Shown here: one piece after another, positions 2,636 through 26,840 of the stretch
How the letters are laid out: every line of letters starts with the position of its first letter
Numbering within the stretch: position 1 is the stretch's first letter
Source: a virus
Reading direction: 5' to 3' (one strand)
Virus record (IMG/VR): IMGVR_UViG_3300017917_005143
Span: 1-37,011 of that record
DNA length: 37,011 bases
The notes under the pieces: model-generated
What the model was told of the DNA's origin: nothing
Database searches by the model: none
What the model saw: only the letters and a program-made list of their open reading frames with translations
Translations under genes and position numbers: made by a program

Positions 2636-2639
2636 AATG

Positions 2640-2670
2640 CAAATATATAATAAATTTTAATATAAATCAA
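2640..2670 (-). promoter_or_regulatory. Host-type (Bacteroidota-like) promoter for DUF4326 gene
   Basis: On the minus strand TTG (2670-2668) is followed by a 20-base spacer and TATATTTG (2647-2640), a full match to TAnnTTTG. The ATG begins four bases later. Confidence 0.6.
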
Positions 2671-2964
2671 TAACTACCTCCGTCAATTGTATCTCCAGTT
2701 GAAACTAAATTACTTGAATATACAGTTGATGCTGATACAATATTAAAAACAGAAACTCCTGAAACATAAATATTATCCATAGAAGCTCCAGTTATATTTA
2801 TAGAAGTTAATCCAGATTCAATTTGAAATATAAGTATTTCCTGATGTTAATCCTGATATTTGATTATTTAAACAATAAAAATTATCATTTATTGTCTTTA
2901 AAACTTCATCATACTTATAATGTGGATTTACTCTAACTTCTATATGCTTTGGGCATCCAGTCAT
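2667..2964 (-). pseudogene. Frameshifted small tail-fibre-like gene
   Basis: Frame 1 starts at 2964 (MTGCPKHIEVRVNPHYKYDE) and stops at 2818 after 48 codons. Moving into the +1 frame at that UGA gives an open continuation to 2667 with the same style of sequence (SGLTSINITGASMDN and a C-terminal TIDGGSY). The ending IDGGSY is shared with the intact neighbours (IDGGLY, IDGGSW), so both halves belong to one gene of about 98 codons. A one-base indel (biological or sequencing) is the simplest reading. A programmed +1 shift at AAU-UGA is possible but lacks a known slippery context. A late-type motif lies 19 bases upstream. Confidence 0.7.
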
Positions 2965-2983
2965 ATTTATATATTTGTGATGA

Positions 2984-2994
2984 CATTATAAATA
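2984..2994 (-). promoter_or_regulatory. Late-promoter-like motif for the frameshifted gene
   Basis: The minus strand reads TATTTATAATG, 19 bases before the start at 2964 and immediately after the upstream terminator. Confidence 0.45.
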
Positions 2995-2996
2995 AT

Positions 2997-3024
2997 AAAG
3001 ACAAATCTTTATTGCTTTGTCTTT
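2997..3024 (-). terminator. Terminator of the 475-residue fibre gene
   Basis: AAAGACAAA/TTTGTCTTT forms a perfect 9-bp stem with a 10-base loop, about 34 bases beyond the stop at 3058. The tail on the minus strand is TTTATTATTT rather than a pure T run. Confidence 0.6.
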
Positions 3025-3057
3025 ATAAATAGTAAAATAATATATTCCTCGTAAAAA

Positions 3058-6173: not shown

Positions 6174-6184
6174 ACTAATAAATA
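6173..6184 (-). promoter_or_regulatory. Possible late-type motif at the start of the 166-residue gene
   Basis: The minus strand reads TATTTATTAGTA directly abutting the ATG. The spacing is tighter than at any other site, so this is the weakest member of the set. Confidence 0.3.
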
Positions 6185-6217: not shown

Positions 6218-7270
6218 TCACAATGCCTTCACAAACCCTTTAACCTCAGATTTATCAATCAATACAATTAAGTTAGCTCCAGAGTCTCTTGTAGACTTCC
6301 ATTTAGCTTCATTTAATTCTTGAAGCTCCAGGTCTACTCCATTCTTATTGTAAGTCCATGCAGACTTAATTTCAATTTGCTTATCCCTAAACTTAAAGTC
6401 CACATGATATGTGTGCTCAACTCCATTGAATGTATAGATAAAAGAATCTCCACTGCTAACCTCGCTCAATAATCCTTTTTCTTCTATGAGCTCAAGGAAG
6501 TATTTTTCGTAGGAACCATTATAATAAATTCCAGTGTCTTTGTATGATTTTATGTTAAATCTTGCTTTTTGATGTCTCTGAAACATCTCTCCATCCTTAA
6601 GGTGGTGGCTCACTCCAAAATTATCCATTGATGTATCTTTCTTTTTTTGTTTAATGTCTTCGTTCTGAGAAATATTGTCCACACCAAACCTTTCTTTAAT
6701 AGTTTTGTTTTTCTTATCCTTAACTTTTATATTTTGGGATACATTTTCAACTCCATATTTTTTAATAGTAGTTTCTTTTAATTTATCTCTATATTGTTTA
6801 AGTTTTAATGGATGTGAAACTCCATGCTCTTTTTCAAACTTATTTATCAACTTACTATTTAATTCATTAAAATAATTTACTCCATATTTTTCATAAAGAG
6901 TTTTATTTTGTTGCTCTCTATTACAATAAAATTCATCACCATATTTTTCCAACTTAGTTTCTTTACTCTTTTCCTTAATTGACTCAAGTTGAAATACGTT
7001 ATCAACTCCAAACTTCTCTTTAACAGCTTCCTTAGAGGACTTTATTCTCGCATCAATATTTTCTGGAAGAGCTGCCCAGTTCTTTCTACATTCCTCAGAA
7101 CAAAGTTGTCTTGTTTCTTTTTTTCTAACTTCAAAATCATTCTTGCAAAATAAGCAACTCCTAATTTCTCTACTATTTATTTTCTTAAGTTCATCAGCAC
7201 ACTTTCTGGAGCATGTTTTCATTCCATTTTTTGGATTCTCAATTCCGCAATTTAAACAATTTGTTTTCAT
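6218..7270 (-). CDS. Free-standing homing endonuclease with KYGV repeats and PD-(D/E)xK-like domain
   Basis: The 350 residues divide into three regions. Residues 1-65 hold two Cys zinc-finger-like units (CLNCG...CSRKC and CLFCK...CSEEC). Residues about 80-240 carry seven repeats of the K(Y/F)GVxNxxQ type, a DNA-binding repeat common in phage mobile endonucleases. The C-terminal 110 residues have a nuclease-like fold with YNGSYEKYFLELI, HVDFKF and QIEIKSAW, where D and E-x-K resemble a PD-(D/E)xK active site. Such genes spread by cutting alleles that lack them. It lies just beyond the sheath terminator with its own late-type motif, consistent with insertion between two transcription units. Confidence 0.75.
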   Translation of the reverse strand: MKTNCLNCGIENPKNGMKTCSRKCADELKKINSREIRSCLFCKNDFEVRKKETRQLCSEECRKNWAALPENIDARIKSSKEAVKEKFGVDNVFQLESIKEKSKETKLEKYGDEFYCNREQQNKTLYEKYGVNYFNELNSKLINKFEKEHGVSHPLKLKQYRDKLKETTIKKYGVENVSQNIKVKDKKNKTIKERFGVDNISQNEDIKQKKKDTSMDNFGVSHHLKDGEMFQRHQKARFNIKSYKDTGIYYNGSYEKYFLELIEEKGLLSEVSSGDSFIYTFNGVEHTYHVDFKFRDKQIEIKSAWTYNKNGVDLELQELNEAKWKSTRDSGANLIVLIDKSEVKGFVKAL

Positions 7271-7398: not shown

Positions 7399-10080
7399 TC
7401 AGAAATCCTCAAATCTCGAACCTGTCGGTAATACCTGGAAAGTAAGGTCAATGAATTCAGCTGTTCTTGTAGGCTGAAGTTGAATCTTACCAACTAATGT
7501 ATTTCTATCAATTGTATCTGGAGTGTTATTTGAATCATCCATAACAACTTTGAACGCTGTAAGCCCTCTTTGATTTTGAATTTGAAGGAGTATTGGTTCA
7601 ACCTTAGCAAGGAACTGGTCTCTTAATGTTTGGTCATTTTGTTCAAACAATAATGTAAGAGATGCTGCAGATACCAATCTTCTAACTTGAAGTAATAATC
7701 TTCTAATATTAATTCTATCAAGAGCTGATTGTCTAACTTGAAGAGTTTTTTGTCCCCAAACAACAACTCCTTGTTGTACGAAGGTTGCAATTGGGTTAAC
7801 TCTACCTTGATAAAGAGTATCTCTTTGGTTGTTATTCAATCTAATATCTGCTCTAATAACTTGTGGTCCAGCAAGACCTCTGTTAAGACCTGCAGGAGCA
7901 AACCAAGGAGCTGCTACATTATCTGTAAGAGCATATGTTTGAACTGCCATCATTGTTGGAGCTTGATATGTATATTTACCTGAATTAGGGTCTTCAATTT
8001 GAATCCATGGCCAATAAGTAGCAGCATAATTACTATCTATTCCTGTAGCTTCAAGTCTTGCAACAACTTCTTCTGGAGTCCCTTTAATAGCTCCATTAGT
8101 AATCCTAGGAGCATCCATTACATAAATAACATCTGTTCTATCCTCTGCTATATCAAGAGCATATTTAATAATAGTTGAGTTATTACTAAAGTCAACACCT
8201 GGAGTTGATAAAACATTTATATCTACCACTTCTGGATTAGCCATTTCATCAAGAGCTAATTTAAAGGCATCTACATTTGATGTATAGGCATCAGTAAACT
8301 CTTCATAAACTTCTGTATATGTTTGATATTTATCCCATCCATCAAAACCTCCAGCAGGAACTAATGTGAATTTTAATTTATTTCTATCTACAAGAGTTTG
8401 TGCATCATTTGTATATCCAGTAAGAGAATTAATATTTCCACTAACAAATTCATTAGGATTTGCTGAATTTTCAAGGTGAAAACCTTTAATAACTCTTTTA
8501 TCATTTGACTCACCTCCCTCATATGCAAATAAATCAATCTCTAAATTTTTAACTGCATTCTTAGTAGAAACTTGATTACTTGTAAAATTCGTGTATCCAA
8601 GTTCAGATATCCCAAGGAACGTCTTAAATACTGAATCTCCAGAAAGATAACCTGTCTTATAGTAGATATCAGGTGAAGTTGTCCCTGAGATTCCAGACTC
8701 CCTTAAACTATAACCTCTAAATCCAGCAGGAACTGTATTTTTTGGGAAAGAAGGAGCAAGGTCTATTGTAATAAAGCTTGATTTTCTTGGATATTCCTCA
8801 TCAGTTGTACCTATTACCTTAGCTATGTAATTCGAGTCTTCTTCTCTAAGAGAAAGGTTAGACCATCTTTCAAGTGCTGTAGATGATGCAGTAGCATCTG
8901 TATCTTCAAATCTTCTTACTATAATATCAAATGTATAGTTATTTATATCAATATTTGCAATTGAAATCTTAATCTCAGCATTAGCAGAATCACCATCAGA
9001 AATAGTTTGTACTCTAAATAAATTCTTAACATCGCCACCTATAACTCTAGATACAACCCATGGTGTTACTGCATTTGTATAAGAATTAGCAAAATCAGTA
9101 TAAGAAACTTCATTTGTATAGACTATTTTTGGATTTATACCCTTAATTTCTTCTAATGAAGCAGCTTGTCTTATAAAGTGAGGATAAATCCTTTCAACAT
9201 AAAGATTAAGTGCCCCATCAATAACTTCTGGATTTTTTCCTAAAATTTTAACAATATAATCTTCTCTTGTCTCATCAAGTGAAACTGTAATTCCATTTGT
9301 TTGTGCTGTAAGTGGACCTGTAGCTGCACTTAATGTAAACGAACCAAGTGTTGATGTTATAGCGCCTATTGTAACTTCATCTTCTTGATTAAAATAAAAA
9401 TTATCAGTAATCTGATTTCTTTTACTTCTAAGCACAGCAAGTGTTGAGCCAGACTTAGAACCCTTAGGCTCAAGGTCTGCTATAGCAACTGACCATGTAC
9501 CAGCAGAAATATTAGTAATAGTATCATCAGTAACAGTAAGGCCAAGTAAATTAAATGCAGAATCAGCAGCAAGAGCTGTGTTAACCTGACTTGAAGTTAC
9601 ACCAGTACCACTAAATGAAATTATAACATCTGTCCCAGTTGTACTAGCACTTACTGTATCATCACTCATTAACACATCAGTTTGTGCTGTAAAATTATAA
9701 GTTGTTGCAGTAGCTAAACCAGTCTTAGTAAAAGTTAATCCATAATTAGTTGATGTTCCTGAATATGTATCAGAAGAATCTGCAACTATTAACCAAGCAG
9801 GTGAATTGGTAAATCCATTTTTACCAAGAACTCTTGTTACAACCAACTCATTAGATTGTGCTAAGAATGAATTTGCCACATATGGTAATGGAAAATCTGG
9901 GTCTGTTGAACCAAATCTAAGCAAATAATCATCTGTAGTCTTTATTTTAATTGGTTCAAAAGCAGGACCCTTAAGAGTCTTACCTACAACCCCTAACCTT
10001 GTAATACCTATTCTTGAAGCGAAGATTGTAAAATCTTGTTCTTTAGTAAAAACACCAGGTGAAACAAATATTGTTGCCAT
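7399..10080 (-). CDS. 18: Contractile tail sheath protein (T4 gp18-like)
   Basis: This 893-residue protein begins MATIFVSPGVFTKEQDFTIF and has the conserved sheath C-terminus: RRLLLQVRRLVSAASLTLLF, then NTPDTIDRNTLVGKIQLQ and TAEFIDLTFQVLPTGSRFEDF. These strands interlock neighbouring subunits. T4 gp18 is 659 residues, so about 230 are extra. Most of the excess lies around residues 100-300 in S/T/G-rich beta-type sequence (TYSGTSTNYGLTFTKTGLAT, TVSASTTGTDVIISFSGTG), probably protruding surface domains on the tail. It contracts during infection to drive the tube into the cell. There is no late-type motif directly upstream, so it is probably transcribed with the 104-residue gene 41 bases before it. 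Confidence 0.93.
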   Translation of the reverse strand: MATIFVSPGVFTKEQDFTIFASRIGITRLGVVGKTLKGPAFEPIKIKTTDDYLLRFGSTDPDFPLPYVANSFLAQSNELVVTRVLGKNGFTNSPAWLIVADSSDTYSGTSTNYGLTFTKTGLATATTYNFTAQTDVLMSDDTVSASTTGTDVIISFSGTGVTSSQVNTALAADSAFNLLGLTVTDDTITNISAGTWSVAIADLEPKGSKSGSTLAVLRSKRNQITDNFYFNQEDEVTIGAITSTLGSFTLSAATGPLTAQTNGITVSLDETREDYIVKILGKNPEVIDGALNLYVERIYPHFIRQAASLEEIKGINPKIVYTNEVSYTDFANSYTNAVTPWVVSRVIGGDVKNLFRVQTISDGDSANAEIKISIANIDINNYTFDIIVRRFEDTDATASSTALERWSNLSLREEDSNYIAKVIGTTDEEYPRKSSFITIDLAPSFPKNTVPAGFRGYSLRESGISGTTSPDIYYKTGYLSGDSVFKTFLGISELGYTNFTSNQVSTKNAVKNLEIDLFAYEGGESNDKRVIKGFHLENSANPNEFVSGNINSLTGYTNDAQTLVDRNKLKFTLVPAGGFDGWDKYQTYTEVYEEFTDAYTSNVDAFKLALDEMANPEVVDINVLSTPGVDFSNNSTIIKYALDIAEDRTDVIYVMDAPRITNGAIKGTPEEVVARLEATGIDSNYAATYWPWIQIEDPNSGKYTYQAPTMMAVQTYALTDNVAAPWFAPAGLNRGLAGPQVIRADIRLNNNQRDTLYQGRVNPIATFVQQGVVVWGQKTLQVRQSALDRINIRRLLLQVRRLVSAASLTLLFEQNDQTLRDQFLAKVEPILLQIQNQRGLTAFKVVMDDSNNTPDTIDRNTLVGKIQLQPTRTAEFIDLTFQVLPTGSRFEDF

Positions 10081-10486: not shown

Positions 10487-11203
10487 TTATCTTCTTTTCT
10501 CTGAAATTTTAATTAACACCTTATTAATTGTATTTACTTTTTCGAACTTAGTAGGGTCAACTATTTTACCTTGAACTAATAGTGGAATGTCAATTCTGTA
10601 AATTTTTTCTTGAGTAATATCTGTCTTATTATTTTCACTTGGGTCTCCATTTAATTTTGATGATATATTATACCCATTTATCTTCATATATCCTTGACCA
10701 TCTGAATACCCTTCTGAAAGAATCATTTCATAAAAAGTATTTATATCAACCATATAGTGTGTAAATAAACTAAGTGTATAACTAGTATCAACATAAGCTG
10801 GTTGAGGTATCTTATATAAATCATATCCCTTAAGAGTTCCATCAAAAATTGGAACCTTAACAAATTTAAATTTCATTTTATTTGGAATAGTTCTCTTGAG
10901 AGGAGATGTTCCAGGAACTACTGAATTTCTATATATTGTCATAAATGGCCTTGTAATTTCTTCTCCAAGCTCATTTCTCATTTCTTTCCAATTCATTTTC
11001 CTTTCAGCCCAAAGCTCTTGCGCAAGCCATACAATTGGAACTTTTTGTAGCAAGCCATGTTCATTTATCATACTTATTTCAAGCCCATCAATATAATCCC
11101 TTATACCTTGGTCAATGTCTTCTAACATCAGTTTTTGTGGAAGATAATTGAAGTTCTCAAAATCCCCATCCAACATCTTACTTATATTATCATTAATGGC
11201 CAT
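10487..11203 (-). CDS. 15: Tail sheath stabiliser/completion protein (T4 gp15-like)
   Basis: This 238-residue protein matches the T4 gp15 pattern. It has VPIVWLAQELWAERK, then EITRPFMTIYRNSVVPGTSP, then QPAYVDTSYTLSLFTHYMVDINTFYEMIL and a late YRIDIPLLVQGKIVDP strand. gp15 hexamers cap the sheath and tube at the top of the tail and bind the neck. T4 gp15 is 272 residues, comparable in length. It sits next to gp14- and gp13-like genes as expected for this module, but is separated from gp14 by a 400-base non-coding stretch. The start at 11203 is supported by a late-type motif seven bases upstream. Confidence 0.8.
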   Translation of the reverse strand: MAINDNISKMLDGDFENFNYLPQKLMLEDIDQGIRDYIDGLEISMINEHGLLQKVPIVWLAQELWAERKMNWKEMRNELGEEITRPFMTIYRNSVVPGTSPLKRTIPNKMKFKFVKVPIFDGTLKGYDLYKIPQPAYVDTSYTLSLFTHYMVDINTFYEMILSEGYSDGQGYMKINGYNISSKLNGDPSENNKTDITQEKIYRIDIPLLVQGKIVDPTKFEKVNTINKVLIKISEKRR

Positions 11204-11210
11204 TATATTT

Positions 11211-11224
11211 TTTTTTAATAAATA
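11211..11224 (-). promoter_or_regulatory. Late-promoter-like motif for gp15
   Basis: The minus strand reads TATTTATTAAAAAA, seven bases before the ATG at 11203. It stands back to back with the plus-strand host-type promoter at 11237-11268. Confidence 0.5.
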
Positions 11225-11236
11225 GTTTGAATTAAA

Positions 11237-11268
11237 TTTGAAATTACTTTTTTTATTTACTATATTTG
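11237..11268 (+). promoter_or_regulatory. Host-type promoter for the candidate ncRNA
   Basis: TTTG (11237-11240), a 20-base spacer and TATATTTG (11261-11268) match the Bacteroidota TTTG/TAnnTTTG consensus exactly. The predicted transcript start is near 11273, just before the first RNA stem at 11281. Confidence 0.65.
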
Positions 11269-11272
11269 TTTT

Positions 11273-11540
11273 GGCTTTTGCTCTGCATACCAGTTTTATT
11301 TTTGGGGGCGTTGCTTTCTGATGCAGAGATTTACACTGGAGATGGTAATATTACCAGGCTAGAGAAATATTAAAATAAGCGCTTTCCCCATAATCCGTTA
11401 GAGAAATCTAATTAGCTGTCCCTGCAGGTTTAAGTCTTTTACAAAAAAACGTCTAAGCATCCTCTCATACAGCACCTTTTTTCGAATGATTAAAAATCAT
11501 AAAAAAAGAGGGGGGATTATGGGGGGCGTTATCTTTTTAA
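11273..11540 (+). ncRNA. Candidate structured non-coding RNA, antisense in direction to the late operon
   Basis: This stretch between gp15 and gp14 has no plausible ORF. Its G+C content, counted at 89 of 240 bases (37%) for 11281-11520, is above that of its neighbours. Plus-strand pairings: CTCTGCAT/ATGCAGAG (11281-11288 with 11321-11328); CCAGT/ACTGG (11290-11294 with 11335-11339), which would form a pseudoknot with the first; a palindromic hairpin at 11343-11356; TTAGA-GAAA-TCTAA with a GNRA loop (11398-11411); a long-range perfect 11-bp helix CCCCATAATCC/GGATTATGGGG (11386-11396 with 11514-11524), extendable by two G-U pairs; CCTCT/AGAGG (11461-11465 with 11507-11511); and a hairpin at 11476-11508. 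The GNRA loop and G-U pairs favour the plus strand. A consensus host-type promoter lies directly upstream and a T run at 11533-11537. I do not recognise a known RNA family. Confidence 0.5.
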
Positions 11541-11568
11541 AATTTTTCCCTAATCTGGTAAAAGTATT

Positions 11569-11584
11569 TACTTAAATTTAAGTA
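11569..11584. repeat. Palindrome downstream of gp14
   Basis: TACTTAAATTTAAGTA is a perfect 16-base palindrome beginning 20 bases beyond the gp14 stop on the minus strand. It lacks a T tract, so it is a weak terminator candidate or a protein site. Confidence 0.3.
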
Positions 11585-11603
11585 TATTCTATAAGGAAAA
11601 AAT

Positions 11604-12176
11604 TTACCTAGCCTTAAACACATCTTCATCAACTTCTATAGCTGTTATAGTTATATAAAATCTTCTATCACCACCCCATGAAAATTCATTAGATATTTGA
11701 GAGTATCCATTATTTATTATCATATAATACTCATCTTTATACCCAATATAATCTCCATTATTTATATCATAAACTATAAGTTGATTTTGCTTATATTCAA
11801 CAAGGTCAAGTTCTTCAAGTTGTTCCATGTAAATATGAGCTGTAAATTGACCAAATCCCTTTTTAACAAGACCACCATCAGCCATATACTCTGGTTCAAC
11901 AGTCTCAACATTAATTCTACCTAATATTTTAACTTCTGGCTTCCAAACTTTTTGATATGATTTAGATTGTCCATATAAAGAATGTGTTTGTGTTTTTTTT
12001 AAATCCATTCTATATAGCATAAAAGACTCTTGAAGTATACTTTCAGAGATTTCTCTTCCAGCAGAACCAAAAAATGCCCTTTCTTTATCTCCAAAAAACA
12101 ATCCTATACCATCTGGTGTTCTTTCATCATTACTAAATCCATCAGGTTGTCTTCCTATTTCATTCAAATTAGCCAT
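11604..12176 (-). CDS. 14: Neck protein, probable T4 gp14-like
   Basis: This 190-residue protein directly follows the gp13-like gene with a 15-base gap, the T4 gene order. Recognisable elements are a disordered start (PDGFSNDERTPDGIGLFFGD), a central ESILQESFMLYRMDLKKTQT helix, and a beta-rich second half with YDINNGDYIGYKDEYYMIINNGY and RRFYITITAIEVDED. That layout is what is expected of the gp14 neck protein that seals the filled head and docks the tail. The sequence alone is divergent (T4 gp14 is 256 residues), so the call leans on order. The stop is TAG, unusual here. It has no separate promoter motif and is probably co-transcribed with gp13. Confidence 0.6.
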   Translation of the reverse strand: MANLNEIGRQPDGFSNDERTPDGIGLFFGDKERAFFGSAGREISESILQESFMLYRMDLKKTQTHSLYGQSKSYQKVWKPEVKILGRINVETVEPEYMADGGLVKKGFGQFTAHIYMEQLEELDLVEYKQNQLIVYDINNGDYIGYKDEYYMIINNGYSQISNEFSWGGDRRFYITITAIEVDEDVFKAR

Positions 12177-12191
12177 TTTATTTTATATTAA

Positions 12192-13388
12192 TTAGTAAAT
12201 CCATATTTTCATTGGAAGGAATGATAAAGACTTGTTTACCGATTCTTGAACAGATACTCGCTTCTCCATAATTCTATCATAAGAAAGCTCCTCAAGGTCC
12301 TTTTCAAGCTTATCTAATAGCCTTTGTTGGTCTTCTCTACCATTTGAAATAAGGTCGTCTTTATTTAGTGTTAATTCAGCCCCTGGAATTGGAAGCTGTC
12401 CATTAAATTTACCTCTAATACCAATTCCTAACAACTCCTTCGCAAGTGCTTGAGCATATTTTTTAACCCAAGTTTGAGCTACAGAATTAAGTTGACACCA
12501 CGTTATGTAATTAAGTTGTGCATCTCCTGGTCCAGATACAAGACCATTTCCTTGCTTAATACTTCCATCAGGATTTGTTGCACCTGTATAACCAGGATTT
12601 GCCGAATACCCACTAAAACTAGGATTACCATACATACCTGCTCTATCTCTATATGTATAGAACATAGTTCCTGGAGTTCCAGCTCCAGAACCTATTCCAA
12701 AATTTGTATTTCCAGAAAAATTATTATTTCTTGGAACTGGGAATAATTTAAGAGTTTTGGTTCCGTCAGCACCAGGTCTAAGCATATAATGATATTCAGC
12801 ACCTCTAACTCTATTTCTAAGCTCTGCTGCTTGCGCTGTCATAATAGTATCAAATACAGGCATTACACTATAAAGAGAATGCCCAGCAAAAGAAGCACCA
12901 AATTCACTAAATGCAATGTTATTAGCTCCAAATGGGTCAAGTCCAAATAAATTTATAAAAGCTGGTGTGTACCATAATATATCTATTACTTCTCTGTTTG
13001 CTGGAATTGTATAATCTTGAGTTCCAGCTGTTAATGCGATAGCATCAGTTTTAACTTCTCTAGTACCATTTGCTCCAAGACCTATTTGTTCACCTATTTG
13101 GTTTGCAAAAGAATTTTCAAAATACAACGAGTTTGATACATATTTAAGCGTAAAATCTACTTCAGAAGGTAATCCAAGCATTTCTCCAAGTCTATTTCTA
13201 AGAACCCAGTCATTTATATATCCAGAATACTCTTCAATTGCCTCACAAATACACTCTTCTATCTGCTCATCAACAAGTTCAACACCCATTACAGGCGCAC
13301 CAAGCTTCCTTCTAATCCTATTGAATATCCTATTTTTATCAGTCTCACTCATACAAGTAAGACATCCTTCTGCACAAAAAGAACTCAT
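12192..13388 (-). CDS. 13: Neck protein (T4 gp13-like)
   Basis: This 398-residue protein has the gp13 signature helix near its N-terminus, RRKLGAPVMGVELVDEQIEECICEAI, followed by EYSGYI. It also carries KYVSNSLYFENSFANQIG and the C-terminal YAQALAKELLGIGIRGKFNGQLPIPGAELTLN segment common to this family. gp13 joins the portal to gp14 at the head-tail junction. It is about 90 residues longer than T4 gp13 (309), with the excess in a G/S/N/Y-rich loop region (GSGAGTPGTMFYTYRDRAG, NPSFSGYSANPGYTGATNP). The start carries three Cys in MSSFCAEGCLTCM, a possible metal site. It begins 11 bases after the 94-residue gene's stop. Confidence 0.75.
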   Translation of the reverse strand: MSSFCAEGCLTCMSETDKNRIFNRIRRKLGAPVMGVELVDEQIEECICEAIEEYSGYINDWVLRNRLGEMLGLPSEVDFTLKYVSNSLYFENSFANQIGEQIGLGANGTREVKTDAIALTAGTQDYTIPANREVIDILWYTPAFINLFGLDPFGANNIAFSEFGASFAGHSLYSVMPVFDTIMTAQAAELRNRVRGAEYHYMLRPGADGTKTLKLFPVPRNNNFSGNTNFGIGSGAGTPGTMFYTYRDRAGMYGNPSFSGYSANPGYTGATNPDGSIKQGNGLVSGPGDAQLNYITWCQLNSVAQTWVKKYAQALAKELLGIGIRGKFNGQLPIPGAELTLNKDDLISNGREDQQRLLDKLEKDLEELSYDRIMEKRVSVQESVNKSLSFLPMKIWIY

Positions 13389-13705: not shown

Positions 13706-13738
13706 GGTTAATAAAATTTGATTTATATTTGTTTTGAC

Positions 13739-14644: not shown

Positions 14645-16123
14645 TTAGCATTTATTAATGTTATCAATATAGAATTTATACTTTCCACAATCCCATATTC
14701 TATCATATCCTAATTCTTGCATTATTTCCCATTCTGTTTTTTCATCAGAATATATTTCTTTAAATCTATTTTTTAAAGAATTTTTACTAAATCCAAATTT
14801 ATGAAAGCGCTTATATCTTGATACTTTGGAATTATAATACATATAATCTGGCTTAATAATTTTACTTAATTTAAATCCATTTTTTGCATAAACATTTTCT
14901 TTTTCATCCGAATTCCATCTCAAATCCAAGAAAGTAAATAGTTCATGTAATTCATAATTTTTTTTTATAAACGATATAAATTTAGAGAAAATACCTACAA
15001 TATTATAATTTATATCTGATGCAAACCTTTTAATTTCATAAATCATTTTATTTTTATTAGCTTTTATATTTGAAGAAAGAGTCATAACTGACACTAATTT
15101 GTTTTCATAAAAAGCGCCTATATAAATATTACTTTTATCTTGACCTTGAATGTGATTTATGTCCAAAAAGTCATTTTTTTCCTTTGATGTAATTTCTCTT
15201 ATTGTGCATTTTCTAGCATAAATAGATTTTTTAAAACTTATATTTAGAATATTTTTTATTTTTTCTTTAACTATATTGTTTTTTAAAAACCACTCATCTT
15301 CCATTATATGAATAAGTTTATAACCTTTGGATTTACATATTTCAGTTTTATTTAAGTGGAAAAATTTACCTTTTTTACCATAATTTTCAGAATGATATAA
15401 ATTTCCATTAAATTCAAAACATATATTTTTTTCAGGTATGATAATATCAATTTCAACACCATCAAAAAAACTTCTATTGTTTTTTAAAATATTTATATTT
15501 AAATCTTCTTCTATAAAACTTTGAAGGTCCTTTTCTGGTTTTGATATAAAAATTTTTTTAATATTTTTAGAGGCAATTAATAAATTTGTTCTAGTCTTTT
15601 CTTTAAAAGATTTACTTGCATATTCACTTAATCCAAATTTATGTTTATATTCTTCTGGAGTAATATTGTGTTTAATTAAATGAGTATTAGTTAAATATCT
15701 TAATTTTTTATTACATATTTTACATGTTACATGATTATTTTTTTTAGATGTCTCATTTTCTTTTGATTTTTTATCTAAAAATGTTGTAAACTTAATAGAT
15801 TCTTCTGGAAACTCCTTTATGTATGACTCAACTGTCTTATTATGCTCTTTTTTTAAGTGAGTTGTATAACATCCGCTAATATTATTTAAATCAACAGTAT
15901 CCCACTTACAATATTTACATGTAAATTTTTCTTTATCTTCAATAACTTCAATTTTAAAAAATTGAGAATGCCAAAAAGTATTGTTTTCTTTTAAGAATTG
16001 TCTTCTTTTATAAGAAGATGGAATTTCTATGTTTAAAGATTTTAAATGAGTAGTTATAGAACCACTTCTATTTTCAATATCATAAAACTCTTTGCCAGTT
16101 ATGTTGCAAATTAATTTATCCAT
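14645..16123 (-). CDS. Free-standing homing endonuclease with zinc fingers and EFNG/YHSE nuclease core
   Basis: The 492 residues begin with three MucR/zinc-finger-like units (CNITGKEF...H, CKYCKWDT...HLKKEH, CKICNKKL...HLIKH). A VSR/EDxHD-type nuclease core follows at about 205-255: DGVEIDIIIPEKNICFEFNG followed by LYHSEN. The C-terminal half has YARKCTIREITSKEKNDFLD, FLDLRWNSDE and LGYDRIWDCGKYKFY, typical of phage mobile endonucleases. It sits directly after the capsid gene's terminator with its own late-type motif. Its last residues YIDNINK-C copy the capsid end YIDNINK-Y at both protein and DNA level, so capture of that end during insertion is likely. Target specificity cannot be read. 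Confidence 0.8.
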   Translation of the reverse strand: MDKLICNITGKEFYDIENRSGSITTHLKSLNIEIPSSYKRRQFLKENNTFWHSQFFKIEVIEDKEKFTCKYCKWDTVDLNNISGCYTTHLKKEHNKTVESYIKEFPEESIKFTTFLDKKSKENETSKKNNHVTCKICNKKLRYLTNTHLIKHNITPEEYKHKFGLSEYASKSFKEKTRTNLLIASKNIKKIFISKPEKDLQSFIEEDLNINILKNNRSFFDGVEIDIIIPEKNICFEFNGNLYHSENYGKKGKFFHLNKTEICKSKGYKLIHIMEDEWFLKNNIVKEKIKNILNISFKKSIYARKCTIREITSKEKNDFLDINHIQGQDKSNIYIGAFYENKLVSVMTLSSNIKANKNKMIYEIKRFASDINYNIVGIFSKFISFIKKNYELHELFTFLDLRWNSDEKENVYAKNGFKLSKIIKPDYMYYNSKVSRYKRFHKFGFSKNSLKNRFKEIYSDEKTEWEIMQELGYDRIWDCGKYKFYIDNINKC

Positions 16124-16265: not shown

Positions 16266-17951
16266 TTAATATTTATTGATATTATCAATATATACAACTC
16301 CGTAGAATCTGTTGTTAACCATCTTCTTAGCGTAACGAGTCATGATACCTTTTCTTGGTGTGAAATCGTTAGGGTCAGTGATAGTTTGTGTCAACTGAAG
16401 AGGAATGTATGGTGCGTAGATGTAACCTGCTTCAAGGAAAGTATTACCTTTGTGTCCAAGAAGAACAATGTTTGCTGGTAAATAAGGGTCTTTGTATACT
16501 ACGTATCTTGAACCTAAGTTACCAATTTTTTCAACACCCAAGTTGTATTTTTCAGACTCTGGTTGAGCAGAACCATCAACGTGGAAGTATTCTAAGTCAT
16601 CAAAAATTGCTCCTGCCTCTGCAGAACATACAATCCAGTTTGCACCACCTCTAAGGGTTGCTTTATGAATTTGAGCAGAAAGCTCGTTAATTCTTGTGAT
16701 AAGAGTCTGGTTCCAGTCTTTTTGAGTTCCGAAGAAGTTCGCATTAGAAGAAAGTCCAGCGTAATCCCATCTTGCTTTGAATGGCGCACCATTAATAAGG
16801 TCGATGATAATCTCTCTATCAATTTCAGCTGCAACGTGCTCAGAAAGAAGAGCTGTTAACTCTGCCTCAGCATCAATTGAGTGATATGCTTCAAGGTTTT
16901 GAGCAAGCTCTGGAGTCCAGTGAGCTCTAAGTTTTCTTGTTACAGTATTTACAGTTACAGATGAGAATCTAATTGTAAGCTCAGCCATTTCTGATTTAGC
17001 CTCAAGGTCATTGTAAATTTGGTAAGCAGGAACTGCAGAAATAGTAAATGCTGCACCAAAGTTTGTACCATCATTAAGCATTGCTGGGTTGAAGTCAGAA
17101 CCGTATACACCAGCTGGTCTAAGGTCAAGAATAACTCTTGCAACACCACCTGCATATTGGTCTTGCGCCCAAGTTTGCACTGAAGAATAGAAAGGAATAT
17201 TACCACCTGCAGCTACAAGTAATTGATTTCCATTAGCTCCTGAATAATAAATATCAGTTACAGCAGAGAATCTTAATGAAGCTGAAGATTGTTGTTTAGA
17301 AGAATCAAAAGCATATCCACCTGAGTTAAGGTTAAATACCATATTGTTAAGACCACCAACCCATGCAGTAGCTGCAGAAGAAGATGTAACACCCATTGCT
17401 GTCTCACCTGTACCAAAAGACATATCAAATCCTTGGTTATTGTAGAAACGCTCATAAGCACTTGTATTAGCAAAATTAGGCCCTGCTTGACCATTTGCTG
17501 TATTTAATGGAGCAACAATATCTCTTGTTCCTGTACCATTAACAATTCCTGGAGGCATTGCATTATAAGAAGTGTCGTTACCATTGTAAGAAACTCTAGC
17601 ATCCATATAGAATAAAAGTCCTGAAGGAAGCGCTAAAGGCTGTACTGATACGATTTCGTTAGCAAGTAATCTTGAGAATACTCTTCTAACAATTGGGAAT
17701 GCTACTGTATCGAAACGACCTGCAGATGAGTCAAGAGTTACCTCGTTCAACATCGCTGCCGCTTGATTTTCAAGAAGCTGTGCTACGTTAGCAGCTTTAA
17801 TACCCTTCATTCTAATAGGGTTACCATTTCTATCGTAACCTTCGTCAAGAAGACCTGAGTCAGACCAAGAGTCTACGATTGCTTTTCTTTGTTCAGCCAA
17901 GTTTTTAAAGACTGTAAGTCCAACTTTACCACTGTTCAATAATTCGCTCAT
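16266..17951 (-). CDS. 23: Major capsid protein precursor (T4 gp23-like)
   Basis: This protein has 561 residues from the preferred start MSELLNSGKV at 17951; an upstream in-frame Met at 17978 would add nine residues but lies inside the leader downstream of the late-type motif. It contains gp23 signatures: TVAFPIVRRVFSRLLANEIVSVQPLALPSGLLFYMDA near residue 82, LTALLSEHVAAEIDREII, GGANWIVCSAEAGAIFDDL, and DPYLPANIVLLGHKGNTFLEAGYIYAPYIPLQLT. gp23 forms the hexamers of the head. T4-type protease sites fit L59-L-E61 and L68-N-E70, just before the first conserved block and close to the T4 cut after residue 65. It follows the scaffold gene as in T4. Confidence 0.95.
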   Translation of the reverse strand: MSELLNSGKVGLTVFKNLAEQRKAIVDSWSDSGLLDEGYDRNGNPIRMKGIKAANVAQLLENQAAAMLNEVTLDSSAGRFDTVAFPIVRRVFSRLLANEIVSVQPLALPSGLLFYMDARVSYNGNDTSYNAMPPGIVNGTGTRDIVAPLNTANGQAGPNFANTSAYERFYNNQGFDMSFGTGETAMGVTSSSAATAWVGGLNNMVFNLNSGGYAFDSSKQQSSASLRFSAVTDIYYSGANGNQLLVAAGGNIPFYSSVQTWAQDQYAGGVARVILDLRPAGVYGSDFNPAMLNDGTNFGAAFTISAVPAYQIYNDLEAKSEMAELTIRFSSVTVNTVTRKLRAHWTPELAQNLEAYHSIDAEAELTALLSEHVAAEIDREIIIDLINGAPFKARWDYAGLSSNANFFGTQKDWNQTLITRINELSAQIHKATLRGGANWIVCSAEAGAIFDDLEYFHVDGSAQPESEKYNLGVEKIGNLGSRYVVYKDPYLPANIVLLGHKGNTFLEAGYIYAPYIPLQLTQTITDPNDFTPRKGIMTRYAKKMVNNRFYGVVYIDNINKY

Positions 17952-17970
17952 TTTTAAAAGTTTTAATTTG

Positions 17971-17984
17971 TTTAACAATAAATA
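17971..17984 (-). promoter_or_regulatory. Late-promoter-like motif for the major capsid gene
   Basis: The minus strand reads TATTTATTGTTAAA, 19 bases before the preferred ATG at 17951. This placement argues against the earlier in-frame Met at 17978. Confidence 0.55.
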
Positions 17985-24738: not shown

Positions 24739-26061
24739 TTATTTTGTTTCTGCAAGTTCTTTATTTTGAACTTTCTTATCTTGTAAAATCCTCTTGTAGA
24801 ATTCAACCCTATCAGCTGTAACATTTGTAATATCATATTTATCCTTTACAAAATCATGAAGATTCTCCGCAAGTTCATGTCTGTATTCAGGGTCTTCAAT
24901 CACTCTCTTCATGTGTTTATACCAATCTTTCTTATCATTCTTAACAAGAAGCCCAGTTTTACCATCTTCTATTAATTCCTTATAAATCCCAAAGTCTTGA
25001 GCAATTAAAACTTTCTTTTTCATCCCAGCTTCAATTATTTTTAATTCAGACTTAACTTCATTGAATGCGTGTCTTCTGTTTTTTATTTGAACAGAGTGTG
25101 TTCCATTTGGCTTGTGGTGAATTATTTTCTCCTCAAATGTATCAATTAGTGGAGCAAGACATACATCGGTATAGTCATAGTGTTTTCCATACTGAGTAAG
25201 AGGAAGAGTCCATCTTCTCACATAATTTTTCATGTATTGCTCATCCTTATAGTCTTCTTGTTTTGGTTTTTGGATTTTATCAAGCCACTTATAATATTCT
25301 GGGTCATTGTCTCTATCTTTATAATTTCCTGTAAAAATCTCTTCAAATTTACACCAAACAGTCTCGTGAGGTAATATAGCTCTTGTTCTTCTTTCGTTGT
25401 TTGGCAACATTTCTGTAATGGTACCCCTTGTATCAAATCCACACATTATAATTTGAAATTTATCTCTAAGCTCATTATTGGACCAAAGTTGTTGAAATCC
25501 AGGTCTCATAAGCTCAAGGTCATGTAAGTGAGATGAGCCACCAATCCAAGAAATTCTACATTTATTAGAAACATTTTCTGTAGCCTCAGAAGTCCACATC
25601 TGATGCTCCATATTAAGAGCATTTGGAATTACAGTTACATTTTTATTGAATGGCTTTATATATTCTGCAAATATAGATGTTGTTGTGGTTACATAATCTG
25701 ATAATCTTAAATTATTTGAAATTTTTTCACTTAAATTTTCAGCCTTAACTATTTGATAAAGTGGGTGAGTTGTTGGCGGTTCCCAGAAGTCATCAATATC
25801 CATTACCAATATAGTTCCACTTTCTTTTATTTTAGAAAATAATTCAGCAGAAGTTTCGTATGGACCAATGTGTCTGTGAAAGTGAATTATATCGAAGCTT
25901 TGAAAATAAGCAATATTGTTTAAGTTTGGCTGATGATTAATCTCAACTTCAATTTCATCTCCAAAATGCTTTTGTATTGCTTGTGCTGGCCAAATATTTC
26001 GGTATGAACCAACTCCTTGCAGGTCTGATGGGACCATTAAAACTCTTATTTTTTTATTCAT
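24739..26061 (-). CDS. Glycosyltransferase, GT4-like (GT-B fold)
   Basis: This 440-residue protein shows two Rossmann-like halves. The N-terminal half has IRVLMVPSDLQGVGSYRNIW, FDIIHFHRHIGPYE and TILVMDIDDFWE. The C-terminal half has CRISWIGGSSHLHDLELMRP, YDYTDVCLAPL and a donor-binding segment ELKIIEAGMKKKVLIAQDFG followed by GKTGLLV, as in GT4 enzymes. Such enzymes move a sugar from a nucleotide-sugar to an acceptor; here the acceptor may be virion protein, DNA or a host surface glycan. It is the only minus-strand glycosyltransferase, the other five being at 32312-36828. Its ATG overlaps the stop of the upstream endonuclease by four bases (ATGA), so the two are probably translationally coupled. 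Confidence 0.8.
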   Translation of the reverse strand: MNKKIRVLMVPSDLQGVGSYRNIWPAQAIQKHFGDEIEVEINHQPNLNNIAYFQSFDIIHFHRHIGPYETSAELFSKIKESGTILVMDIDDFWEPPTTHPLYQIVKAENLSEKISNNLRLSDYVTTTTSIFAEYIKPFNKNVTVIPNALNMEHQMWTSEATENVSNKCRISWIGGSSHLHDLELMRPGFQQLWSNNELRDKFQIIMCGFDTRGTITEMLPNNERRTRAILPHETVWCKFEEIFTGNYKDRDNDPEYYKWLDKIQKPKQEDYKDEQYMKNYVRRWTLPLTQYGKHYDYTDVCLAPLIDTFEEKIIHHKPNGTHSVQIKNRRHAFNEVKSELKIIEAGMKKKVLIAQDFGIYKELIEDGKTGLLVKNDKKDWYKHMKRVIEDPEYRHELAENLHDFVKDKYDITNVTADRVEFYKRILQDKKVQNKELAETK

Positions 26062-26840
26062 AACTTATTTATTATTTTTTCTACCTCTTTTTCTTTATTT
26101 ATATTATAATCTTTTTCCCAAATTGTAAAAAATTTATAACCTTTTTTTTCCGCTAATTCTTTTTTTGTTTTATCTCTTTCCCAAAGTTCCCAAGCATAAA
26201 GCTGTTTTTTTTTGTTTAAAAAATTTTTATCATATTTTTCTGGATTACAATGCCAATAATCTCCATTAAATTCAATAATAACATTATAGTCAATTAGTAA
26301 GAAGTCGTATTTTAATGTTTCTATTAAAAATTGAGTTTTAACTTTAAAATTAAGTAACTCTAAAATTTCCTTAATTTCTTTTTCTGCATTAGAAACTGGA
26401 GCTGTCTTTAATCTTCCACCAATTAAACTTTTAATCATCGTACTCCTTTGAATTTCTTTTAAATAATCTAAACTTCCACTATCATATTTTTTCTTTAAAG
26501 CTTGAGATACTTTTTTTCTATTTTCTGGATTTGCCATTGCATTATCATTTCCACAAGACTTACCCCTTCTTGATTTTGAATTTTGTTTTTTTGATTTTTC
26601 AGAATGTTTTTTACCAAAAAATGGATTTTTATTGCCTATTCTACAACAAACATTACAACATCTTTTATTATTTTCAGCATTTCTTATGTTTCTCAAAACC
26701 AAATAACTCTCTTGAGCTTCATATTTTATCTCTTTTTTGCATTCTAAACACAATCTATATCCAAACCATTTACCATCTTCTTCATATACTTTATAAGTAT
26801 TAATCTCTAGTTCTAATTCTTCTTTTGTCCTCCTTTTCAT
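26058..26840 (-). CDS. Homing endonuclease with NUMOD3-like and VSR-like domains
   Basis: The 260 residues are laid out as follows: a Cys-rich start (CLECKKE, CCNVCCRIG), a NUMOD3-like stretch (NPFFGKKHSEKSKKQNSKSRRGKS and GNDNAMANPENRKKVSQALK) that binds DNA, and a C-terminal nuclease with AEKEIKEILELLNFKVKTQF, YDFLLIDYNVIIEFNGDYWH and a closing KKGYKFFTIWEKDYN, the VSR/EDxHD type. It sits between a 70-residue gene and a glycosyltransferase gene, overlapping the latter's start by four bases, which suggests precise insertion into an existing operon. No clear promoter motif is seen upstream, so read-through transcription is likely. Confidence 0.8.
   Translation of the reverse strand: MKRRTKEELELEINTYKVYEEDGKWFGYRLCLECKKEIKYEAQESYLVLRNIRNAENNKRCCNVCCRIGNKNPFFGKKHSEKSKKQNSKSRRGKSCGNDNAMANPENRKKVSQALKKKYDSGSLDYLKEIQRSTMIKSLIGGRLKTAPVSNAEKEIKEILELLNFKVKTQFLIETLKYDFLLIDYNVIIEFNGDYWHCNPEKYDKNFLNKKKQLYAWELWERDKTKKELAEKKGYKFFTIWEKDYNINKEKEVEKIINKL

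Follow-up and report, generated by a model that had tools for sequence, protein, structure and literature searches.

The window, which is the whole stretch of DNA analyzed here, consists of 37,011 nt from a phage record in IMG/VR (IMGVR_UViG_3300017917_005143, positions 1 to 37,011). A 400-nt gap at positions 11204-11603 lies between two minus-strand virion genes, referred to as gene B and gene A. The genes and the late promoter-like element at the locus are listed below.

7399-10080: tail sheath gene.
10487-11203, minus strand: gene B, left flank, 238 aa, probable neck or tail-completion gene; a syntenic partner in relatives, without a named homologue.
11218-11225, minus strand: late promoter-like element CTATTTAT of gene B (ATAAATAG on the plus strand), back to back with the RNA promoter.
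11604-12176, minus strand: gene A, right flank, 190 aa, probable neck gene adjoining the head-tail adaptor Ad2.
12192-13388: head-tail adaptor Ad2-like gene (phrog_211).
16266-17978: Gp23 capsid gene.

The phage is T4-like as judged from its gene content (Gp23 capsid, tail sheath, and PhoH), and its capsid protein is 31-44% identical to those of Flavobacterium phage immuto, Rhodothermus phage RM378, and uncultured phages of 484-595 kb. These capsid matches and the TTTG/TAnnTTTG promoter described below point to Bacteroidota as the probable hosts of the phage clade. No relative of gene B was found in bacterial genomes in the host search, and a search for named relatives in 50,697 phage records gave no DNA match to the gap and no protein match to gene B. 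No tRNA or tmRNA was found. The element CTATTTAT occurs 14 times in the window against 5.5 expected, with many copies 15-20 nt upstream of minus-strand genes and distances of 15-28 nt to genes overall, and is kept in relatives; it is probably the late promoter of this phage clade. Written as ATAAATAG, it is seen at 6178, 10453, 11218, 13699, and 20760 (plus strand) and at 13738 (minus strand). The virion cluster also holds three free-standing homing-endonuclease-like genes at 6218-7270 (DUF7487), 14645-16123 (phrog_3339), and 26058-26840 (NUMOD3 with MTES_1575). Another gap of ~420 nt, at 2636-3057, carries a promoter-like TTTG-N18-TATATTTG at 2948-2977 (plus strand) and several TATAAATA motifs.

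The plus strand of the 400-nt gap carries a promoter and the parts of an RNA, followed by an A+T-rich tract:

11237-11240, plus strand: TTTG, -33 element of a Bacteroidota sigma-A-type promoter.
11261-11268, plus strand: TATATTTG, -7 element, N20 after TTTG; transcription start expected near 11273.
11281-11288, plus strand: 5' arm of hairpin P1, CTCTGCAT.
11304-11313, plus strand: S1, GGGGGCGUUG, in the P1 loop, nearly invariant, followed by nUUUC.
11321-11328, plus strand: 3' arm of hairpin P1, ATGCAGAG.
11334-11339, plus strand: conserved CACTGG.
11343-11348, plus strand: TGGTAA, 5' copy of a duplicated motif, within hairpin P2 (11344-11355).
11351-11396, plus strand: 5' strand of helix P3, with a UUACCAG closing part, an A-rich joint, and the pyrimidine strand M (11377-11396).
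11397-11509, plus strand: variable hairpins atop P3, including a GAAA-capped one at 11398-11411; dispensable, shortened in L046 and L066.
11510-11530, plus strand: S2, GGGGGG-AUUAU-GGGGGGCGUU, 3' strand of P3, with the only G runs of at least 6 in the window.
11534-11553, plus strand: U run, spacer, second U run, and CCCUAA.
11556-11561, plus strand: TGGTAA, 3' copy of the duplicated motif, at the 3' end of the conserved RNA sequence (TCTGGTA).
11561-11603, no strand assigned: A+T-rich tract (86% A+T), resembling an unwinding element.

The exact TTTG-N20-TATATTTG promoter named in the initial annotation can be read directly from the sequence. The pattern alone is not significant in the window (5 found versus 3.1 expected), yet it is conserved: TAnnTTTG is exact in 20 of 23 homologues, with a near match in the other 3, and the TTG-N20/21 spacing is found in 19 of those 20. 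The transcription start is expected near 11273 because the F. psychrophilum promoter box spans -12 to -5 (PMC9723704). P1 starts 10-14 nt after the box in nearly every homologue. The RNA is ~290 nt long, and its conserved 3' tail reaches ~11561; the region first delimited as 11237-11540 is real with its end placed slightly early, and the T run claimed at its 3' side is present at 11534-11538 and 11543-11547. No open reading frame is shared across the homologues of the gap, which rules out a protein-coding gap.

Relatives were located in IMG/VR via gene A and gene B, giving ~22 further contigs with the RNA between these genes and with flanking proteins down to ~50% identity. The RNA is conserved in ~24 other IMG/VR phage contigs, always in this position between the same two genes (the slot). 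A covariance model built from the 5' domain only was run over 36 records; 13 of them each yielded a single strong copy, in the slot every time, and G025 and G030, both outside the training set, each yielded a weaker copy in the slot (E 4e-4 and 1e-3). In these two records, foreign sequence parts the RNA from gene B or gene A and the RNA is nevertheless complete, which shows it to be neither a leader nor a trailer of these genes. Scanning IMG/VR DNA for the core GTTTT-N-GGGGCGTTGNTTTC returned 28 hits, made up of 19 slot contigs and 9 unrelated chance matches. Alignments of the variable part of the RNA are unreliable.

None of the Rfam 15 families gave a covariance-model score above its curated cut-off when the window and 34 related loci were scanned, and a permissive scan of the gap gave chance-level hits only. 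A known Rfam RNA is ruled out on this basis, in agreement with the initial annotation, which had recognized no family. The RNA has no Rfam 15 family and no relative among annotated phages, and a literature search turned up no account of it; it is apparently undescribed. A retron or diversity-generating element RNA was rejected because PF00078 was absent when 18 related records, several being incomplete, were searched, and a mobile RNA or group I/II intron because each record has a single copy, without exception in the slot. The idea of a mobile RNA relic is not supported, for the same single-copy, fixed location and the lack of a reverse transcriptase in the 18 phage records.

The 5' domain is built on P1, an 8-bp hairpin seen in 17 distinct helix versions in which 127 of 136 positions are paired; permutation gave a mean of 80.7 (sd 5.6), and 127 was never reached in 20,000 permutations. 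An independent count found 88% of cells paired, with 49 double changes versus 18.5 after shuffling and at most 51% pairing when the arms were slid. The comparative evidence that P1 is conserved by compensatory change is overwhelming. Its loop holds S1, nearly invariant among homologues as GGGGCGUUGnUUUC, and the loop core GGGGCGTT occurs twice in the window against 0.03 expected. The complement of this core is absent from the window outside the RNA, which leaves the antisense role once proposed without a target there. On the 3' side of P1 come UUUUACACUGG, hairpin P2 with UGGUAGU/UGGUAAU, the A-rich joint, and strand M. The H-type pseudoknot that had been drawn over 11281-11339 was not retained, as its second stem (CCAGU/ACUGG) is lost in most relatives.

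Helix P3 consists of M and the closing sequence paired with S2 and the tail (UCUGGUA). The perfect 11-bp helix between CCCCATAATCC (11386-11396) and GGATTATGGGG (11514-11524) can be read directly, and P3 covaries: double changes were counted at 13 pairs in the close group, versus 5.4 in shuffled data (0/500). The duplex energy averages -37 kcal/mol with a homologue's own M versus -22 with a shuffled M. For the second group (group b), formal P3 covariation is weak because S2 does not vary and the changes in M are mainly C/U exchanges opposite G, a pattern that fits plus-strand G-U pairing. Compensatory change was thus found in both P1 and P3 when relatives were checked for covariation. The hairpin TTAGA-GAAA-TCTAA (11398-11411) is present and its helix is kept in close relatives, but its GNRA loop is not conserved.

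G-U pairs, first taken together with the GAAA loop to favor the plus strand, stand at 94 versus 34 A-C over three alignments, with the P3 model made under plus-strand rules. Folding of 11269-11562 gave z = -2.9 for the plus strand and -3.9 for the minus strand, so energy alone cannot pick the strand. The good minus-strand fold and the late promoter-like motif of gene B in the gap would suit a structure that acts on the minus strand or in DNA, as a processing or pausing element in the gene B late transcript or as a DNA hairpin. This is very improbable, given a plus-strand promoter conserved at a fixed distance from P1, the G-U excess with a pairing model that favors plus-strand wobble, a lower fold energy on the plus strand in all 11 tested homologues, and an RNA that stays whole when parted from either gene. 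Taken from the compared sequences, the RNA encoded on the plus strand at positions 11273 to ~11561 is structured, non-coding, and conserved, has a promoter of host type, and is found in one T4-like phage clade. Covariation, promoter conservation, the lack of a shared frame, and absence from Rfam all support the initial annotation of a novel structured phage RNA, and that such an RNA exists is close to certain. With it, large T4-like phages of Bacteroidota gain a structured RNA that is well supported and lies outside Rfam.

The RNA also carries invariant G tracts, in S1 and in S2 (GGGGGG-N-GGGGGGCGUU across homologues), and duplicated motifs. Both S1 and S2 hold GGGGCGUU, and both are without the C in L091 and G030. 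The P2 motif is repeated in the 3' tail as UGGUAGU/UGGUAGU in most homologues, and as UGCUGAU/UGCUGAA in L066, UGCAAAU/UGCAAGU in L069, UGCAAGU/UGCAAAU in G025, AGAAAAU/AGAAAAA in L091, and AGAAUGA/AGAAUAU in G030. The true pairing of 5' and 3' copies was the best of 720 permutations over six lineages (with fixed anchors and limited offsets), and a seven-base comparison was matched in 0 of 20,000 permutations, with the positions in divergent lineages first picked by eye. A looser longest-common-substring window search for identity between the P2 arm and the tail was not significant, with two anchors mis-set. Group b keeps the copies identical though neither copy has an evident complementary partner; for this reason there seems to be a constraint on the identity of the two copies, beyond pairing with the middle strand.

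A switch or attenuator could use the same motifs, with M pairing first with the 5' module (S1 and P2) and then with the 3' module (S2 and tail), and with P3 and the U run terminating conditionally. S1 and S2, each with GGGGCGUU, can both pair with M, the tail repeats the P2 arm, and a U run follows P3. Such a device is nonetheless improbable: there is no plus-strand gene directly downstream, the next genes being on the minus strand, a terminator scan found none, and P3 is far more stable than the alternative.

Other relatives fill the slot differently. In at least eight records (L073:2124-2903, minus strand; L071, L076, L077, L080, L081, L089, and L142), the same promoter type and strand are found with a winged-helix protein of ~257 aa. 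Its matches, with weak scores, include four replication-initiation (O-like) families, namely phrog_678 (6 of 8 members), phrog_345 (best E 5e-5), phrog_270, and phrog_8102. Its predicted fold (mean pLDDT 78) is a generic winged helix only (MarR/CodY-like), with no PDB match at E <0.001 and unnamed phage proteins as the best viral matches. In a stretch of ~45 codons, chosen after viewing, 16 of 24 conserved residues keep their codon versus 24 of 94 elsewhere in the gene (Fisher p 5e-4). Such synonymous constraint on this stretch (ATACTATCAAAGGTAAGTCCAACTCGCTTATGCGG...GGTCAATTGCGAGTG) would fit an overlapping DNA or RNA element. Beyond the open reading frame there is another conserved stretch, ACTAACATACGGCG. 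The RNA and the slot protein never occur in the same record, many records being fragments.

Different structured-looking RNAs occupy the slots of other relatives (L057/L061/L062/L065; L068/L141; L139/L140/L146; L063), none in Rfam among those scanned. The first two sets (L061:2577-3000, L062:2577-3000, L065, and L057 versus L068:2343-2936 and L141) are two groups of large RNAs from more distant phages; on common motifs such as GGAA..GGCG..TTCCAA they may be one family. L139, L140, and L146, with a slot gap of 438-439 nt, have an RNA with GTTTACACTGACGGAAGTAGTGC and a T-rich hairpin near the 3' end, which looks like a distant relative of the window RNA. The L063/L090 slot (388-kb and 66-kb contigs) has AAGCGCCCCCTATAGATTCCC...GAGGGGGACTTTAGGGGGTGTT resembling the P3 of the window, and an extra minus-strand open reading frame of ~166 aa.

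With several unrelated-looking RNAs and a winged-helix protein in one position, the slot may be a general early-cargo (moron-like) slot, where certain phages carry RNAs and others a DNA-binding regulator. The window RNA would then act in trans early in infection, with the invariant GGGGCGUUG loop of P1 exposed for binding by a target RNA or by a protein of host or phage, and with P3 as a stabilizing arm. An invariant loop within a covarying hairpin fits this, as does a stand-alone unit that is whole despite gene insertions on either side. However, no target is present in the window, this reading predicts neither the unique paired G tracts nor the concerted change between 5' and 3' copies, and the RNA is never found elsewhere in the genome, as cargo RNA might be. 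A trans-acting RNA is a close rival, nearly as likely as the reading preferred here.

That reading, held tentatively as the most likely mechanism, is an R-loop or primer transcript acting in cis at a replication origin. It is rated highest because an upstream RNA copy matching the downstream template would explain the identity constraint, and because the locus combines a promoter, a non-coding transcript, G tracts, a T run, and an A+T tract, as transcript-primed origins do. Early timing, the R-loop, and priming are what we infer, starting from the observed RNA unit, fold, conservation, and motif duplication. Host RNA polymerase would transcribe the RNA early, and the 5' domain would fold and expose S1 (GGGGCGUU). 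As the polymerase passes the paired G tracts, the T run, and the A+T-rich tract, the G-rich RNA would remain annealed to the template as an R-loop, aided by the match between the 5' copies (S1/UGGUAGU) and the 3' copies (S2/UGGUAGU). RNase H would trim the RNA into a primer for leading-strand synthesis, and the long helix P3 would compete with, and might switch, the R-loop state. The slot of sister phages is taken by an initiator-like protein whose gene has a constrained nucleotide stretch. Precedents for a primer transcript are ColE1 RNA II (PMC5043065) and the mitochondrial LSP-CSBII R-loop (PMC6317783).

Several observations bear on the origin. The paired tracts G6-AUUAU-G6 are the sole G runs of at least 6 in 37 kb, and in two relatives of ~100 kb each no pair of G (or C) tracts of 5+ other than the homologous one is as close and as similar. 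The origin reading also draws on the slot protein of relatives, with its replication-initiation matches and constrained stretch, and on its never sharing a record with the RNA. The A+T-rich stretch after the T run is 43-108 nt with 71-94% A+T in relatives. T4 oriF and oriG consist of a promoter and an A+T-rich unwinding element, and T4 early synthesis mostly starts in late-gene regions (PMC3016281). The same combination in a late region is found here, as weak evidence, the whole phage being A+T-rich. Against an origin, neither the window nor two ~100-kb contigs showed a GC-skew switch at the slot, skew tracking gene orientation; the slot protein has weak initiator-family matches and a generic fold; strong RNA structure would be unexpected for a T4-type R-loop origin, as these require no particular sequence (PMC3016281); and the co-varying copies could also stem from alternative pairing with one middle strand.

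A wider proposal, rather unlikely as it stands, is an origin slot where a structured RNA primer and an O-like initiator protein swap between lineages under the same promoter type. A folded RNA primer would then anneal to its own template via duplicated G-rich motifs, and sister phages would use an O-like protein. To our knowledge, there is no clear precedent for truly interchangeable RNA and protein initiators. If the origin reading is right, this would be an RNA-for-protein exchange at an origin, and the mechanism a new variant of transcript-primed replication.

Among known systems, the large RNAs GOLLD, ROOL, and OLE are likewise structured and in some cases phage-borne, but the window RNA has no Rfam match, is ~290 nt long, and has another architecture. 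Lambda gene O with oriLambda shares two features with the slot protein, a winged helix (here with O-like matches that are weak) and nucleotide constraint on a stretch within the gene; it differs in that the slot protein scores are weak and iterons are not demonstrated. The RNA II of ColE1/pMB1 is, like the window RNA, a non-coding structured transcript of host RNA polymerase, the primer role being proposed here. RNA II also has stretches of G and a middle strand that can pair in alternative ways, resembling the window RNA. Unlike RNA II, the window RNA belongs to a phage rather than a plasmid, is ~290 nt versus 550, has no sequence homology to it, and has no RNA I counterpart seen: there was no RNAI Rfam match, and no internal minus-strand promoter in the RNA region by a scan that covers sigma-70-type and not Bacteroidota promoters. 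The mitochondrial LSP-CSBII region similarly has a G-rich block downstream of a promoter, and an R-loop forms at CSBII. CSBII consists of two G tracts with a short spacer and then a T-rich stretch, resembling the window RNA; its polymerase and genome are unrelated, and it is without a conserved long helix. T4 oriF and oriG differ from the window RNA, which has a conserved elaborate structure, G tracts, a host-type rather than MotA promoter, and a putative R-loop. They share with it an untranslated transcript in a late-gene region, a promoter followed by an A+T-rich tract, and T4-like gene content. If the origin reading is right, the R-loop determinants at T4-type origins, listed as open in a T4 review (PMC3016281), would become testable.
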